From positions 5,324,501 to 5,388,500 of the forward strand of contig NZ_CP097267.1 in NCBI RefSeq assembly GCF_028473605.1: a stretch of 64,000 nt of DNA, given 5' to 3'. The stretch is from Acidovorax sp. NCPPB 3576. Lineage in GTDB: Bacteria > Pseudomonadota > Gammaproteobacteria > Burkholderiales > Burkholderiaceae_C. Below, in pieces: positions 54,274 through 61,338 of this stretch. The position numbers were made by a program, and so were the translations under genes. Numbering within the stretch: position 1 is the stretch's first letter; each line of letters opens with the position of its first letter. The notes under the pieces are model-generated. The model had not been told where the DNA came from. It did not search any database and worked only from the letters and a program-made list of their open reading frames with translations.

Positions 54274-55008
54274 ATGCCCCGTTTCCATTGCCCCTTGCCC
54301 CTGGCGGGCGGCGCCGCGCTGGCGCTGCCGCCCTCGGCCGCGCGCCACGTGCAGGTGCTGCGCCTGCAGCCCGGCGACGCGATCACGCTGTTCGACGGGC
54401 GCGGGGGCGAATACGCCGCCACCATCACCCGCATGGGCCGCTCCGATGTCGATGTGCAGGTCGGCGCGCACGACCCCGTGGAGCGCGAGGCCGCGCGCGC
54501 CGTGCACCTGGTGGTGGGCATGCCGGCCAACGAGCGCATGGACTGGCTCGTGGAGAAAGCCGCCGAACTGGGCGCGGCCAGCATCCAGCCCGTGGCCGCT
54601 GCGCGCAGCGTGCTGAAGCTGTCGGGCGAGCGCGCGCAAAAGCGCCAGGCCCACTGGCAGGCGATCGCCGTGGCGGCCTGCGAGCAGTGCGGGCGCAACC
54701 GGGTGCCCGAGGTGCATGCCCCGCTGGCCCTGGCCGACTGGCTGCGCGCGCAGGCGGCCGACGCCCACGCGGCGGAGGGCGGCCTGGTGCGCCTCGTGCT
54801 GTCGCTGCAGGGTGGCTCCCGCCCGCTGCGCGAGGCGGTCGGCAGCGCCGGCCGCGTGCAGGTGCTGCACGGCCCCGAAGGGGGCTTGACCGCGCAGGAG
54901 GAAGACCTGGCGCTGGCCCATGGCTTCGCGCCGGCCAGCCTGGGCGCGCGCGTGCTGCGGGCCGAGACCGCTTCGGTCGCCGCGCTGGCGCAACTGGCCT
55001 TCGAATGA
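54274..55008 (+). CDS. rsmE: 16S rRNA (uracil1498-N3)-methyltransferase
   Basis: The 244-residue SPOUT methyltransferase has the N-terminal PUA-like start MPRFHCPLPLAGG, the knot motif VLHGPEGGLTAQEEDLA and the LRAETA end. It methylates U1498 of 16S rRNA. The start fits the family, but the leader is the dispersed repeat and no ribosome site is visible. The SMC operon starts 24 bases after its stop and may share its transcript. Confidence 0.94.
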   Translation: MPRFHCPLPLAGGAALALPPSAARHVQVLRLQPGDAITLFDGRGGEYAATITRMGRSDVDVQVGAHDPVEREAARAVHLVVGMPANERMDWLVEKAAELGAASIQPVAAARSVLKLSGERAQKRQAHWQAIAVAACEQCGRNRVPEVHAPLALADWLRAQAADAHAAEGGLVRLVLSLQGGSRPLREAVGSAGRVQVLHGPEGGLTAQEEDLALAHGFAPASLGARVLRAETASVAALAQLAFE

Positions 55009-55032: not shown

Positions 55033-56445
55033 ATGGAGAGCACTGTGTTGGCGGCCGAGGCGCCGTGGCCCCAGGGGGCGGAGAACGAGGGCGGGCTGTT
55101 CGACTTTTTCCGGGATGCCGATGCGGCGGGCGATTCGGCCCTGCTGTGGCGCATTGCGCGCGAGCAGGCCGTCACCCAGGCGCTGAGCGGGCTGTTCCAC
55201 GGCCCGGCGGCACTGGTGCAGCTGCGGCTGTGGGCTTTCTTGCAGCTGGCGCGCCAGGGCGAGGCCACGCTGGCGCGCGAGCGCATCGACGAGATCTTCC
55301 ACGCCCTGCGCCCCGAGGCGCTGGACACCGTGCTCAAGCGCTTTCGCGACGTGGGCCTGCTGGCCTGGGACGACAGCGCGCGCACCTATGCGCTGCCGCC
55401 GCTGGCGCAGCGCGTGGCCGGACTGCTGGCGCCCCTGGCCAGCGACGGCGGCGGGGACGAGGACGGCGGCGAGCTGGCTGCGCTGCTCGGCCAGGTGGTG
55501 GGCGCCAACCAGCTCGGCGCGCTCGATGCGGGCCAGGTGCAATTGCTGCAGGCGCAGCTCACGCGGTTGCACGGCGAGTTCGCCGACGCCATCGCCAGCG
55601 GGTCGGAATTCCGCCTGCGCGCCGCGCGCCAGCGCTACGACCGCGCGGCGGTGCTGATCGACCGCGCCTCCGAGGCCATCACCGCCATCATCGGCCACGC
55701 GCACGGCCACATCGCGCTGGAGCGCGCCGCGCGCGGGCTGGGGCAGGCCCAGTCGCGGCTGCTGGCCATGGCCAGCCAGTTCAACCGCGCGCTGCAGCAG
55801 GTGGACCGCCAGCGCGTGACCCTGGGGACCACCGGCATCACCAGCACCGACGTCAAGCGCTGGCTGCAGACCGTGCGCTCGCCCCATGCGCTGCTGGACG
55901 ATGCCCTGGGCGTGCCCGCGGGCCTGTCGGCCCTGGCCCCGCATGAATTGCTGGACGTGACCGAGGCCGAGTTCGAACGCGACCGCCCCGTCGCCGGCCC
56001 GGCCGAAGAACTGCCCGGCGCGCAGCCGGCGCCGGCGGGCAACCTCACCGCCGTGGCCCTGCCGCACGAGCTGGGCGACCTGTCGGCCCTGCTGCAGGCC
56101 TGGTCGATCGATGCGGCCGGCGATGCCGCGCCGCATGGCGTGGCCGCCGCGCTGCTGGGCGCCACGCCCGCCGATGCCCGCTACGCCCAGGTGGCCTACA
56201 AGGCCCAGTTGCTGCCCCTGCTGGGCGACCCCCAGGCCGGCGTGCTGCCGGGCGCCACGGGCGCGCTGGCGCGCCTGCCCTGGCGCGTGCAGTGGGAGGC
56301 CGCCACCGAGGCCATCGACCATCCCCAGGTGGAGCTGCTGAGCCAGGGCCGCATGGTGCCCGCCACCGCCGTGCCGGCCGACGCATCTGCCAAGGCCGCC
56401 ACCGCGCCCGATCCTTCGCCGAACCCCGGCCCCGACACCCTTTGA
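55033..56445 (+). CDS. kleisin subunit of an SMC complex (MksF/JetA-like)
   Basis: The 470-residue protein has an N-terminal winged-helix region (residues about 40-130, FHALRPEALDTVLKRFRDVG) and a long helical centre (about 155-280). A C-terminal acidic/Ala-rich part follows with a predicted second winged helix. Its size and place, first of three genes before a KITE-like and an SMC protein, fit MksF or JetA. It would bridge the SMC heads. Identification rests on operon order and fold appearance rather than on strong motifs. Confidence 0.75.
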   Translation: MESTVLAAEAPWPQGAENEGGLFDFFRDADAAGDSALLWRIAREQAVTQALSGLFHGPAALVQLRLWAFLQLARQGEATLARERIDEIFHALRPEALDTVLKRFRDVGLLAWDDSARTYALPPLAQRVAGLLAPLASDGGGDEDGGELAALLGQVVGANQLGALDAGQVQLLQAQLTRLHGEFADAIASGSEFRLRAARQRYDRAAVLIDRASEAITAIIGHAHGHIALERAARGLGQAQSRLLAMASQFNRALQQVDRQRVTLGTTGITSTDVKRWLQTVRSPHALLDDALGVPAGLSALAPHELLDVTEAEFERDRPVAGPAEELPGAQPAPAGNLTAVALPHELGDLSALLQAWSIDAAGDAAPHGVAAALLGATPADARYAQVAYKAQLLPLLGDPQAGVLPGATGALARLPWRVQWEAATEAIDHPQVELLSQGRMVPATAVPADASAKAATAPDPSPNPGPDTL

Positions 56446-56452
56446 AGACCCC

Positions 56453-57133
56453 ATGGACGATGCCGCCCTGCTGATTGCCGAACTCCTCACGCGCCGCTGG
56501 CTGCCGCGCAGCCACCCGCGCGTCAAGCGCGCGCTGGTCGATGCCGAACTCTTCGCCCTGGTCGAGCAGCGCCTGGCCCAGGCGGGCCTGCGCTTCATGG
56601 ACAGCATCTACGCCGACCACGTGAGCGTGGCCCTGCTGCCGCCCGCGCAGACGGCCGTGCTGGGCGAGGCCGGCGTCAACGCCAACAACAACCTGGACCT
56701 GCCGCGCGACGCGCAGGCGCTGCTGGTGGTGCTGTGGGCGCTGATCGTTCTACCGAAGCGCGAGCGCCAGACCAGCCGCGTGGAGCAGGCCGACGAGGGC
56801 CAGAACGACATGTTCCCCGGCGCCAAGCCGCTGCCGTCCGCGCGGCTGGTGAGCCCCGTGCTGTCGTACAAGACCCTGCTGGAGGACTACGGCAACCAGC
56901 TGGGCAAGAAGATGCGGCTCGATGCCAACCTCAAGCTGCTGGAGCGCCACGGCTTCATCCTGCGCCGCCAGGACGAGATCGCCGAAGGCCCGCTGCTGGA
57001 CGTGCTGCTCGACTACGACGTGATGGCCCCGCGCATCCTCGACGGCGCCCTGGCCGACGTGCTGGCGCGCGAGCGCAGCGAGGCCGCCGCCACCGTGCCC
57101 GCCACGGACCCCACCCCGGCGCCCGCCGCCTGA
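56453..57133 (+). CDS. KITE-type subunit of an SMC complex (MksE/JetB-like)
   Basis: The 226-residue protein is mostly helical with a winged-helix-like part (KTLLEDYGNQLGKKMRLDAN then LKLLERHGFI, about 140-170) and matches MksE or JetB in length and position. KITE dimers bind the kleisin centre. It starts seven bases after the kleisin stop. The C-terminal tail is Ala/Pro-rich. Confidence 0.75.
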   Translation: MDDAALLIAELLTRRWLPRSHPRVKRALVDAELFALVEQRLAQAGLRFMDSIYADHVSVALLPPAQTAVLGEAGVNANNNLDLPRDAQALLVVLWALIVLPKRERQTSRVEQADEGQNDMFPGAKPLPSARLVSPVLSYKTLLEDYGNQLGKKMRLDANLKLLERHGFILRRQDEIAEGPLLDVLLDYDVMAPRILDGALADVLARERSEAAATVPATDPTPAPAA

Positions 57134-57157
57134 CCGACGACGAATCCCCCGCGCCCC

Positions 57158-59992
57158 ATGTTCCACCTGCAAACCCTCGAACTCGTCCACTGGGACTACT
57201 GCCAGCGCGTGGCCCTGCCGCTCGATGCGTCCATCATCACCATCGCCGGGCCCAACGGATCGGGCAAGACCACGCTGCTCGATGCCATGCGCACCCTGCT
57301 GGGCCTGCGCTGCTCGGCCCCGCGCGACTACCGCACCTATGCGCGACATGCCGGTGCGCAGACCGCCTGGCTGCGCGCCGTGGTGGACAACCGGGCCCAG
57401 GGCCGCCAGACCTCCAGCCGGCCGTTCGCGCGGCGCCTGCTGTACAGCGACCAGGTCACGCTGGCCTGCCGCATCGACCGCAACGGCGGCGACTGGCAGC
57501 GCCGCTACTGCCTGCTCGACGGCGACGTCAGCATCGAACAGCTGCGCGACACGCCCGAGAAGGACCTCGGGTTCATGGGCGTGGAGGCCTGGGGCCGCGT
57601 ACTGGGCGCGGCGGGCCTGTCGCCCGCCATCGCCCGCGTGCTCTCGCTGGAGCAGGGCCAGACCGACCGCCTGTGCGAATTCAGCCCGCGCGAGCTGCTG
57701 CGCCTGGTGTTCGACGTGTTCGGCGACCAGCAGGTGCTCGATGCCTATGACCAGGCGCGCGAGCACCAGCAGCAGCTCGTGCGCGAAATGGCCCAGGCCG
57801 AGCGCGAGCTGGACCACGGCCGCGCGCAGCTGGCCGAGCTGCAAAACCGCGTGGCCAGCTACCAGAGCTGGCAAATGAAGGTCGCCGAGCGCGAGCGCCT
57901 GGCGACCGAAGTGCTGCCCGTGCTGGCCTGGCACGGCGAGCGCGAACATTTGACCAAACAGGCCCGCGAACTGCGCCGCCAAAAGACCCAGCACCGCAGC
58001 GCCCTGGCCGACCAGGCGGTGCAGAATAAGCGCCTGCTCACGCTGATCGAGGAAAGCGCCCGCGCCCAGTCCGACGCCACCCGGCTGCTGGCCGAGCGCG
58101 ACGAGGCCCGCGCCGCGCTGGACGACGCCACTCGCCACGAATCGCCGCTGGAGCAGCTCGCCAAGCGCGAACAGGAGCTGCTGGCGCTGGTGGACAAGGG
58201 CAGCAACGCCGACGAACTGCAGGCGCACCTGGCGCGGCTGCAGGCCGAAGAGGCCCAGGCGCAGGACGAGCGCTCCGCCCTGCAGCAGCGGCGCAAGCTC
58301 GCGCAGGAGGCCCTCAAGGCCCTGGAAGGCCAGCACCTGCCCCCGCTGCCGCACGAGGTGCAGCAGTTCCGCAAGCGCCTGGTGGCCCAGGGCATCGGCC
58401 ACCAGTTCGTGGCCGAGGTGGTCGAGGTGGCCGACGAGGAATGGCGCGCCGCCATCGAAGGCGTGCTGCGCGGCCACCGCTGGGTGGTGCTGCTGGACAA
58501 GGAGGCCGACCTGGCCGAGGCCTACGAGATCGGCGAGCGCGAGCGCTACCGCCACTACCTCGTCGGCCCGGGCGAGAAGGCCCTCAAGGGCGATCCCGGC
58601 ACGCTGCTGTCCCATGTGCGCTTCACCGCGCCCGTGCCGCGCTGGCTGGTGCAGCAGATGCAGCAACTGCGCTGCGTGGCCGATCCGCGCGAGGGCAAGC
58701 GCCTGGGCGGCACCTGGATCACGCCGCAGGCCTACATGCACGACGGGCGCGGCGCCCGGTCTATGTGGGTGGAGCCGCGCGAGCACCAGTTCGGCGCCGC
58801 CGCCGTGCACGCCCGCCGCAACGCCGCCGAGCGCGACGCGGCCCAGATCGATGCGCAGCTCGCGCCCGTGCTGGACCGCGTGCTGGCCTTGAAGCGCCAG
58901 ATCACCGACACGCGCCGCGCGCTCGAAGGCCACAGCGCCGCCGAAGAGCTGGCGCGCCGCAGCGACGAGTTCGCCCAGGCGCGCGAGGTGCTGCCCACCG
59001 CCAAGCAGGCGCGCATCGCCGCCGCCCAGCGCTGGCAGCGCCTGGACACCGAGGCCACCCGTGCCCACGACCGCCACCGCGCCTTCGCCGACGAACACCA
59101 GCGCCTGGAGCAGCAGCTCCAGCGCGCCCGCAGCGACAGCGACCGCGCCGCCCACGAATGGACCGCCCGCCGCCGCAGCCATGTGGCCACCACCGCGCAA
59201 AGCCAGCGCCAGCGCCACGGCTTTCCGCCGCGCTGGATCGCCCCGGCCACGCGCGAGGCGCTGGTGGACGAATACGTCAACGACACCCAGGCCCGCCTGC
59301 GGCTGCAGGCCGTGGAGCAGGAGCTGGAGCACAACACCTGGGAGCAGGACGCCACCGTCGAGGAGCGCCACCGCCGCATGGAGACCACCGTGCGCGAGCA
59401 GACCTTGAGCCTGTCGGACCACCAGGCCAAGAATGCCCAGGCCGGCACCGCCGTGCACAACGCGCGCGAGAGCTACATCGAGGTGCTGCGCAGCACCGTG
59501 CGCCGCTACCGCAAGAACATCCAGGAGCTGGGCGCCCTCGCCGGCGTGGAGGTGGCGGCCGACCTGCCGCTGCTGGAGAACGACGACACCGTGCTCGCGC
59601 AGGCGGGCCTCAAGGTGCACTTCGCGTTCGACGGCAAGGGCAGCATCGGCATGAACGACGGCGAGGCCTCGGGCGGCCAGCAGGTCATCAAGTCGCTCAT
59701 CCTGCTGGTGGGCCTGCTCAAGGACGAGGAAAGCGGCTCGGGCGGCTTCGTGTTCATCGACGAGCCCTTCGCCCACCTGGACGTGCGCAACATCCAGCTG
59801 GTCGGCCACTTTCTGCGCTCCACCCAGGCGCAGTACGTGCTGACCACGCCCATCACCCACAACCTGGAAGTCTTCGAGCCCGCCGAGATCACCCTGGTGA
59901 CCAGCAAGAAGCCCCAGGGCTCGCGCTGGGCCCCGCCCATCGCGGTGGCCAAGCGCCGCGGCGTGCCGGTGCTGGAGCCGGTGCCGGCGTAA
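57158..59992 (+). CDS. SMC-like ATPase (MksB/JetC-like), compact
   Basis: The 944-residue protein has a Walker A GPNGSGKTTLLDAM (residues 31-44). Coiled coils lie at about 190-390 and 560-800, around a hinge at about 395-560 (EVVEVADEEWRAAIEGVLRG). An ABC signature SGGQQVIKSLILL (about 837) and Walker B GFVFIDEPFAHLD (about 863-875) follow. It is shorter than MukB (about 1,480) and typical JetC proteins. With the two genes upstream it forms a three-gene loop-extruding complex, of chromosome-organising Mks or plasmid-restricting Wadjet type. No JetD-like nuclease gene follows. Confidence 0.88.
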   Translation: MFHLQTLELVHWDYCQRVALPLDASIITIAGPNGSGKTTLLDAMRTLLGLRCSAPRDYRTYARHAGAQTAWLRAVVDNRAQGRQTSSRPFARRLLYSDQVTLACRIDRNGGDWQRRYCLLDGDVSIEQLRDTPEKDLGFMGVEAWGRVLGAAGLSPAIARVLSLEQGQTDRLCEFSPRELLRLVFDVFGDQQVLDAYDQAREHQQQLVREMAQAERELDHGRAQLAELQNRVASYQSWQMKVAERERLATEVLPVLAWHGEREHLTKQARELRRQKTQHRSALADQAVQNKRLLTLIEESARAQSDATRLLAERDEARAALDDATRHESPLEQLAKREQELLALVDKGSNADELQAHLARLQAEEAQAQDERSALQQRRKLAQEALKALEGQHLPPLPHEVQQFRKRLVAQGIGHQFVAEVVEVADEEWRAAIEGVLRGHRWVVLLDKEADLAEAYEIGERERYRHYLVGPGEKALKGDPGTLLSHVRFTAPVPRWLVQQMQQLRCVADPREGKRLGGTWITPQAYMHDGRGARSMWVEPREHQFGAAAVHARRNAAERDAAQIDAQLAPVLDRVLALKRQITDTRRALEGHSAAEELARRSDEFAQAREVLPTAKQARIAAAQRWQRLDTEATRAHDRHRAFADEHQRLEQQLQRARSDSDRAAHEWTARRRSHVATTAQSQRQRHGFPPRWIAPATREALVDEYVNDTQARLRLQAVEQELEHNTWEQDATVEERHRRMETTVREQTLSLSDHQAKNAQAGTAVHNARESYIEVLRSTVRRYRKNIQELGALAGVEVAADLPLLENDDTVLAQAGLKVHFAFDGKGSIGMNDGEASGGQQVIKSLILLVGLLKDEESGSGGFVFIDEPFAHLDVRNIQLVGHFLRSTQAQYVLTTPITHNLEVFEPAEITLVTSKKPQGSRWAPPIAVAKRRGVPVLEPVPA

Positions 59993-60147
59993 GTGCCGGC
60001 GGGATGGGTGTAAACCCTCCCATGCCGGGTGGCCGCGCAGGCGACAGGACTCCTAGAATCCCGCAGGCACTATCGTTGTGCCCGACCGGCGCCGCTGCGG
60101 GCCGCCCGATGGCCGGCTTGGCCCGCGATCCATTCCAAGGAGACCCC

Positions 60148-61338
60148 TTGCCGCCACGGCTTGCGAGATGGCGCGACCGCGCCCTGTTCCATGCCCCGTC
60201 CCGCGCGCTCGACCGGCTGCTGGGCACGGAGCGGCGCCTGCGCGTGCGCACCGCCATGGCGGGGTTGGCGGGGCTGCTCATGCTGTGCTGCGTGGCGGCG
60301 ATGCACATCGTGGCGCGCGCGGGCATGGCGGATGTGCGGTGGGTCAACGGGTGGACGCTGTTTTGCGTCTCGGGGCTGATCGGCGTGTATGCGCTGATCC
60401 GCAGCGGGGTGTCGCGGCGCTTTCGAGATCCGTCGCTCACGCTGTTCCAGATGCTCTATGCCGTGGCCTGCAACGCGGCGGCCTTCGTGATCGCGGGGCC
60501 GGCGCGGGGGGTCACGCTGCCCATCCTGGCGGTGATCCTGATGTTCGGCATCTTCGGGCTGTCCACGCGGCAGATGGTGGGGGTGCTGTTCTATTCGCTG
60601 GCGGCGTTCGGGGCCGGGGGCGTGCTGGCGGAACTGCGCGACGACCTGTACCAGGGTCCGGCCATGGCGACGGCCTACGCGATCATGATTTTGGTGGTGC
60701 TGCTGGGCAGCACCTTCCTGACCACGCGGGTGCAGGCCACGCGCCAGCAACTGCGCCGGCAAAAGCACGAACTGGCCGAGGCGCTGGAGCACATCCGCGA
60801 GCTGGCCACGCACGATGAGCTGACCGGGCTGCTCAACCGCCGCCACATGGTCGAGCTGATGCGGCTGGAGCAGCGCCGCACGGCGCGCAGCGGGCATTCG
60901 CTGGTGCTGGTGCAACTGGACCTGGACCATTTCAAGGCCATCAACGACACCCACGGCCATGCGGCGGGCGACCGCGCGCTGCAGGCCTTCGCCCGCTCGG
61001 TGAAAGCCAGCGTGCGCGACTCCGACGTGCTGTCGCGCTGGGGCGGCGAGGAGTTCGTGCTGATGCTGTGCAACACCCAGCCGGCCGATGCCAGCGCGCT
61101 GCTGGAGCGGGTGCGCTGCACCGTCTCGGCGCTGCGGCTGGCGCACCCGGGTGCGGAGCCGATCCACCTGACCGTGTCCATCGGCCTGGCGCAGCACGTG
61201 GTGGGCGAGTCGATCGAGCAGACGCTGGAGCGGGCGGACCGCGCGCTCTACGCGGCCAAGGCGCAGGGGCGCGACCAGGCGGTGTGGGCACCCCTGTGCG
61301 AAGCGGTGGGCGAGGGCGCAGGTACGATCCCCGGATGA
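60148..61338 (+). CDS. membrane-bound diguanylate cyclase, TTG start
   Basis: The 396-residue protein has six hydrophobic helices in residues about 30-200, then a coiled linker (ATRQQLRRQKHELAEALEHI) and a GGDEF domain with WGGEEFVLML. An RxxD (RDSD) inhibitory site lies five residues before the GGEEF motif, so cyclic di-GMP synthesis with feedback control is expected. The TTG at 60148 is chosen because AAGGAG lies eight bases upstream; in-frame ATG codons upstream have no such site. The stop overlaps the next start as ATGA. Confidence 0.9.
   Translation: MPPRLARWRDRALFHAPSRALDRLLGTERRLRVRTAMAGLAGLLMLCCVAAMHIVARAGMADVRWVNGWTLFCVSGLIGVYALIRSGVSRRFRDPSLTLFQMLYAVACNAAAFVIAGPARGVTLPILAVILMFGIFGLSTRQMVGVLFYSLAAFGAGGVLAELRDDLYQGPAMATAYAIMILVVLLGSTFLTTRVQATRQQLRRQKHELAEALEHIRELATHDELTGLLNRRHMVELMRLEQRRTARSGHSLVLVQLDLDHFKAINDTHGHAAGDRALQAFARSVKASVRDSDVLSRWGGEEFVLMLCNTQPADASALLERVRCTVSALRLAHPGAEPIHLTVSIGLAQHVVGESIEQTLERADRALYAAKAQGRDQAVWAPLCEAVGEGAGTIPG

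Follow-up and report, generated by a model that had tools for sequence, protein, structure and literature searches.

Within the DNA of Acidovorax sp. NCPPB 3576 analysed in this work (64,000 nucleotides, contig NZ_CP097267.1, positions 5,324,501 to 5,388,500; hereafter the window) resides a three-gene operon encoding a kleisin, a KITE protein and a compact ATPase of the SMC (structural maintenance of chromosomes) type. The operon is best explained as a Wadjet-like complex which has repeatedly lost its nuclease, and which plausibly survives alongside Smc-ScpAB as an SMC motor whose job does not depend on cutting; the probability of this reading is put at about 0.6. It would be a compact member of a branch not yet described, most likely unlisted, of the Wadjet/Mks group, in which two SMC proteins are presumably closed by a kleisin carrying a KITE dimer. 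The ancestral form plausibly comprised four genes, the fourth encoding a diverged JetD, that is a Toprim nuclease. In this lineage, and in many others, the nuclease gene would have been lost from the slot separating the SMC gene from a downstream GGDEF gene, and the three-gene motor kept. Such a motor most likely remains able to bind DNA and, at the expense of ATP, to translocate or to extrude loops, but not to cut. Since ScpA is encoded elsewhere in the same genome, the operon represents a second SMC complex; it may act on the chromosome as a condensin-like partner of Smc-ScpAB, or compact or tether other DNA. A preliminary description of the locus had left the choice among a chromosome-organising Mks complex, a Wadjet deprived of JetD, and a subtype recruiting a nuclease in trans. 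The second option fits best the evolutionary data, the first is the likeliest present use, provided that membership in the PF21980 type of Mks is dropped. As one concerns the origin and the other the present use of the complex, the two are not alternatives.

By sequence comparison, the SMC subunit is closest to type I JetC. The PADLOC JetC1 model matches 17 of 17 family members, and the best PDB match of the family profile is JetC (8dk2, 7.3e-9). A comparison set of 20 loci surrounding PF21980 matches includes ten long JetC-type SMCs (1107-1180 amino acids, aa) and three short SMCs (917-943 aa) from nuclease-less operons looking like MksBEF. The profile matches the former at E values from 1.3e-7 to 8.9e-19, the latter only at 0.09-5; similarly, hhalign returns a probability of 99.7 (E 3.9e-25, 634 columns) for the long proteins, versus 92.5 (E 4.9e-7, 129 columns) for the short ones. 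The match to JetC types being by far the stronger, the length of about 940 aa common to the family and to the short SMCs is no sign of kinship. That the window SMC is short had been noticed earlier, and the length is borne out, but it is a family trait and not a peculiarity of this locus: the matched length is 921-944 residues in 86 of 87 loci, the window included and one incomplete locus excluded, and truncation was rejected on this ground. All 87 loci contain the Walker A, signature and Walker B patterns, and the three can be read intact in the window translation, as had been described. Membership in the Smc-ScpAB family is not supported by NCBIfam SMC_prok, whose score of 76.3 bits falls short of the cut-off (567).

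The first two genes are predicted to encode a kleisin and a KITE protein on the basis of structure models, compared by Foldseek with libraries other than the plain PDB and viral ones. The best match of the kleisin model is a MukF-type kleisin, that of the KITE model is JetB of the E. coli and PA14 Wadjet systems. Predicted folds agree with the names originally given to the two products, and with the reported correspondence of the gene order to jetABC; sequence profiles cannot name either. Neither protein has a useful match among PADLOC, Pfam and NCBIfam profiles, and specifically none to PADLOC JetA or JetB, Pfam MukE or MukF, or ScpA and ScpB models. None of 18 kleisin relatives matched a kleisin or JetA model, and their matches to other models were weak (JukB in 3/18, for example, at best 6e-5); 18 KITE relatives matched DUF4194 in five cases and JetB1 in one, all weakly. 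Searched as single sequences against PDB, the two proteins gave no match. As profiles, they hit a winged-helix regulator (5zhc, a weak match at 0.0044) and an antitoxin (0.093), respectively. Profile-profile comparisons of kleisin, KITE and JetD with a Wadjet/Mks set yielded probabilities of 0.3-1.6, and 0.1-1.1 for decoys; the test is a weak one, because JetA-type and Mks-type kleisins also missed each other (0.5). According to a passage of the review PMC10586767, an IFDR motif at the N-terminus of JetB contacts JetD. The motif is missing from all 108 KITE frame matches of the family (some loci being counted repeatedly), but the 20 KITEs taken for comparison lack it as well, which leaves the count with no positive control.

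The link to a nuclease comes from the relatives. Genes of 389-409 aa lie directly after the SMC gene in several of them, and five such proteins match PADLOC JetD1 (E values 1.3e-9, 7.7e-11, 2.7e-11, 1.2e-11 and 1.2e-21); only one of the five is recognised by Pfam JetD_C. A first search with JetD_C, which placed a JetD next to the SMC gene in only three relatives, was wrong. A family JetD profile built from six of the neighbour genes, and searched in 80 genomes, revealed a JetD-type gene adjoining the SMC in 18 of the 79 SMC-bearing ones, the copy of G166 being split over two contigs. Away from the SMC gene, matches were only partial: weak ones in G081 and G227, and the second half of the split G166 copy. 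Counting named records and G795, a relative from outside the order, four-gene loci are 21 out of 87, and spread over seven coded families and the genome of another order. In all of them the two matches share a strand, the JetD match lying at -82 to +87 nucleotides (nt) relative to the SMC match end. The catalytic residues of MksG are given as E236, D279 and E349/E351 in the part of PMC10123090 dealing with the enzyme. Judged from order and spacing, these may be equated with motif residues of the family JetD, in which 20/20 full copies retain the Toprim-region E, the first D and the C-terminal E-x-E pair, and 19/20 the second D. The fourth gene appears to encode a diverged JetD-type Toprim nuclease. 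The corresponding profile found no credible sequence match in PDB. Relatives of this JetD number 444 among 8000 scored candidates; those bearing a name among the matches listed are annotated as hypothetical or DUF2399 proteins, as in Thiobacter, Aquitalea and Gallionella.

No such gene was found in the window genome, which consists of one contig of 5,414,205 bp. No JetD_C protein was detected by a profile search for which the Corynebacterium glutamicum control was positive, and no copy of the diverged family JetD by the neighbour-built profile (23 of 58 first-look candidates scored). The slot where relatives carry the nuclease gene (Table 1) holds no JetD remnant at E<=0.1 or 0.05. The lack of an adjoining toprim-type nuclease, already apparent from the reading frames, therefore extends to the whole genome for both JetD profiles, and the operon, missing JetD both locally and at a distance, is not classed as a Wadjet system. 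Recruitment of a nuclease in trans is unsupported here as far as JetD-type enzymes are concerned. A strong JetD_C gene (E <1e-40) located away from the operon was observed in seven genomes (G067, G091, G112, G253, G283, G303 and G365), six of which have three-gene operons; these genes probably belong to a separate Wadjet coexisting with the family operon.

The complex could still counteract plasmids without cutting them, by compacting, silencing or sequestering circular or foreign DNA, or by delivering it to a host nuclease of an unrelated kind, acting in trans. Kinship with Wadjet, manifest in the JetC and JetB matches, is in line with this idea, as are a compaction-based restriction by Smc5/6, described in a section of PMC10586767, and the six three-gene genomes (all those listed above but G365) with a separate strong JetD. 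However, JetD-type searches, the only ones made, detected neither JetD_C nor the family JetD in the window genome, and many loci have a fixed chromosomal position, adjacent to rsmE or obgE. An anti-plasmid role is accordingly regarded as unlikely.

The genus of the window, represented by 17 genomes, includes five four-gene loci, eleven three-gene loci, among which the window, and one empty site. The rsmE gene lies directly upstream in 16/16 operon-bearing genomes of the genus, and provides a fixed left flank found also in some relatives. A GGDEF gene follows in 14/16, whether JetD is present or not; in the window it is the next gene, as previously reported. Four-gene and three-gene forms occupy the same rsmE-GGDEF locus in the genus. 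At the empty site (G001) the GGDEF gene comes immediately after rsmE, an arrangement also found in G019, from another genus. A broken JetD remnant is present in G026, which belongs to a related genus. Remnants were sought in 66 nuclease-less loci, 15 of which offered less than 1.6 kb of sequence, and found in one. Since one locus of one genus displays three-gene, four-gene and empty states, and a related genus a decayed copy, the step of nuclease loss is directly testable. By eye, the slot between the SMC and GGDEF genes is occupied in G003 and G016 by a frame resembling an acetyltransferase gene, in G006 by a transposon-like sequence, and in G013 by another open reading frame (ORF); loci with a variable slot are L124, L117, L125 and L011.

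The SMC tree, a quick LG+G4 reconstruction with long-branch warnings and a weak root, requires at least 11 changes of JetD state, eight of which are forced by well-supported branches; a concatenated tree of 25 rows requires six, and the JetD label clusters in it no more than in shuffles. Nuclease-less loci are grouped in old clades that retain the operon, one of them comprising 21 rows. The presence of JetD in G795 suggests that the gene is ancestral, in which case 18 losses are needed. The JetD tree recovers clades f1, f28 and f47 as monophyletic, and has 11 of 17 splits in common with the SMC tree. Yet, when tested on JetD data the SMC topology is rejected (log-likelihood difference of 46.5, versus >3000 for five random trees), and strict co-inheritance of JetD and SMC was rejected by approximately unbiased (AU) tests. 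Given shared clades along with a rejected topology, loss is the simplest reading, some exchange inside clades being possible; we infer the direction of change on this basis.

The opposite course, in which a chromosomal condensin of three genes was ancestral and acquired a JetD-type nuclease repeatedly at one and the same position, would suit the excess of three-gene over four-gene loci (66, one of which is partly masked, vs 21), the partial conflict between the JetD and SMC trees, and the weak root of the latter. Each addition, however, should have involved the same diverged JetD, inserted directly after the SMC gene, on the same strand and within the narrow interval given above. The monophyly of f1, f28 and f47, the four-gene locus of G795 and the remnant in G026, which denotes decay and not gain, are also hard to accommodate, and repeated gain seems quite improbable.

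The genes left after nuclease loss are under purifying selection in the nuclease-less clade of the window. In four pairs from this clade the ratio of nonsynonymous to synonymous substitution rates (dN/dS) is 0.065-0.105 for the kleisin and 0.053-0.128 for the SMC, in 4/4 pairs lower than for rsmE (0.145-0.235). Values for KITE are 0.11-0.23, above rsmE in 2/4 pairs, and those for the GGDEF gene, which three of the pairs possess, 0.26-0.36. Pairs carrying JetD give 0.04-0.14 for KITE and 0.16-0.26 for JetD. The view that the operon is a relic, whose genes became idle upon loss of JetD and are slowly decaying, may invoke the genus member lacking the whole operon, the variable filling of the JetD slot, and the upper KITE values. 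It is largely refuted by the selection data, with dN/dS far below 1, and very unlikely also in view of the three genes standing in order in 84/84 loci with enough sequence (the kleisin being partial in 13), of ATPase motifs intact throughout, and of the old nuclease-less clades that retain the genes.

According to one part of the review PMC10586767, MksBEF of P. aeruginosa, likely a JetABCD system without its JetD, takes part in organising the chromosome. It may tentatively be proposed, on a footing somewhat short of even odds, that an unrecognised Burkholderiales-centred branch of the Wadjet/Mks group easily sheds its nuclease (about 18 losses if ancestral, several within one genus at one locus) while the motor is kept under selection, and that a defence machine has in this way repeatedly been turned into a chromosome-organising condensin.

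Set beside type I Wadjet (JetABCD), the operon shares the kleisin-KITE-SMC order, an SMC of JetC1 type, a KITE model resembling JetB and, in relatives, a fourth gene of JetD1 type. It differs in lacking JetD, as do most family loci (66/87), in a kleisin and a KITE not matched by PADLOC JetA and JetB, and in an SMC of about 940 aa versus the 1107-1180 of the ten JetC-type SMCs compared. The four-gene relatives have the architecture of C. glutamicum MksBEFG, whose MksG residues have counterparts in the family JetD; the window operon, unlike it, has no MksG. The MksB of C. glutamicum is 1111 aa long, as stated in a portion of PMC10123090. From MukBEF the operon is set apart by the absence of Pfam MukE and MukF matches and by a MukB match (E 0.016) below the cut-off, the resemblance being one of fold only.

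PF21980 (MksE) is presumably the mark of Pseudomonas-type MksBEF, and the three short-SMC operons of the comparison set are taken to be of the P. aeruginosa type. The domain was found in 22 of 229 genomes of the class and in 2 of 14 controls, but neither in the window KITE nor elsewhere in the window genome. Pseudomonas-type MksBEF without MksG is similarly made of kleisin, KITE and SMC, with no nuclease and an SMC of similar length. According to PMC7485682, MksBEF coexists with SMC in P. aeruginosa, just as the window operon does with ScpA. That the latter is an ordinary member of this known nuclease-less family, as gene order and a near-equal SMC length may suggest (one three-gene operon of PF21980 type has an SMC of 943 aa), is hardly tenable, given a KITE without PF21980 and an SMC much nearer to JetC types by both profile and hhalign scores. 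On present evidence, drawn from the PF21980-type operons compared, the two would be parallel outcomes in separate lineages.

Searches of the open-licence literature found no paper associating Wadjet with Burkholderiales, or DUF2399 with Wadjet; wording on JetD loss was met only in the portion of PMC10586767 cited above. The profiles tried overlook this branch, since kleisin and KITE have no PADLOC match, and the family JetD mostly escapes Pfam JetD_C.

The distribution of the family, as far as seen, is narrow. SMC relatives were identified in 25 of 60 genomes (one weak match), in 68 of the 399 genomes of the order (63 at E <1e-60, five weak) and, at class level (E 1e-20), in 2 of 369, the own genome being included each time. 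The class-wide figure is a lower bound, because at most two candidates were scored per genome; other scorings with limited candidates are lower bounds as well. Among the 87 loci the kleisin-KITE-SMC order on one strand was found in 84, the remaining three ending too early. One of the 66 loci counted as nuclease-less has part of its sequence masked, which hides its JetD state, and sits inside a nuclease-less clade. Rows left out were G371 (a fragment) and G230 in the JetD_C survey, G371, G230 and G108 in the family-JetD survey, G371 and G108 in the set of 87 loci.

Table 1. Features of the operon and its flanks (window positions)
Feature	Position	Strand	Basis
rsmE, RsmE-type 16S rRNA methyltransferase, upstream neighbour	54274..55008	+	Pfam PF04452, 1.6e-45
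Kleisin subunit (JetA/MksF/MukF-like), 470 aa	55033..56445	+	ORF; predicted fold
KITE subunit (JetB/MksE-like), 226 aa	56453..57133	+	ORF; predicted fold
SMC subunit (JetC-like, compact), 944 aa	57158..59992	+	PADLOC JetC1, 8.8e-32; PDB JetC 8dk2; hhalign
Walker A GPNGSGKTT, SMC residue 31 on	57248..57274	+	Translation; invariant in family alignment except second residue
ABC signature ASGGQQ, SMC residue 837 on	59666..59683	+	Invariant in family alignment
Walker B VFIDEP, SMC residue 865 on	59750..59767	+	Invariant in family alignment
Slot for JetD-type nuclease in relatives	59993..60069	+	Here 77 bases, intergenic only
GGDEF diguanylate cyclase, right flank	60070..61338 (start codon approximate)	+	PF00990, 1.3e-44

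ORF coordinates agree with the subunit lengths initially reported, and with spacings of 7 nt between kleisin and KITE genes and 24 nt between KITE and SMC genes. The nearest hits of the window kleisin include proteins of Acidovorax sp. SUPP3434 (98% identity) and Paracidovorax valerianellae (94%), which point to Paracidovorax/Acidovorax as the probable genus. In chromosomal coordinates the operon spans 5379533-5384492, about 32 kb from dnaA, and this distance is 24-41 kb in six relatives with the operon at the rsmE locus, JetD-bearing or not. Proximity to the origin was rejected as evidence for a condensin, as dnaA is at least 0.3 Mb away in 12 of the 19 genomes examined. The obgE gene is found upstream, within 1.5 kb, in 20 of 66 nuclease-less loci, and in 0 of 20 JetD-bearing loci whose available upstream sequence reaches at least about 1.1 kb. 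In obgE-type loci (L029, L030, L031, L102, L103 and L114, for example) YjbR-like and RlmL-like genes, or proB, often come next. In one of them a frame of 178 aa, acetyltransferase-like by eye, separates KITE and SMC genes (L031:5390-5926), and the gap between these two genes is wide also in L113 and L161.

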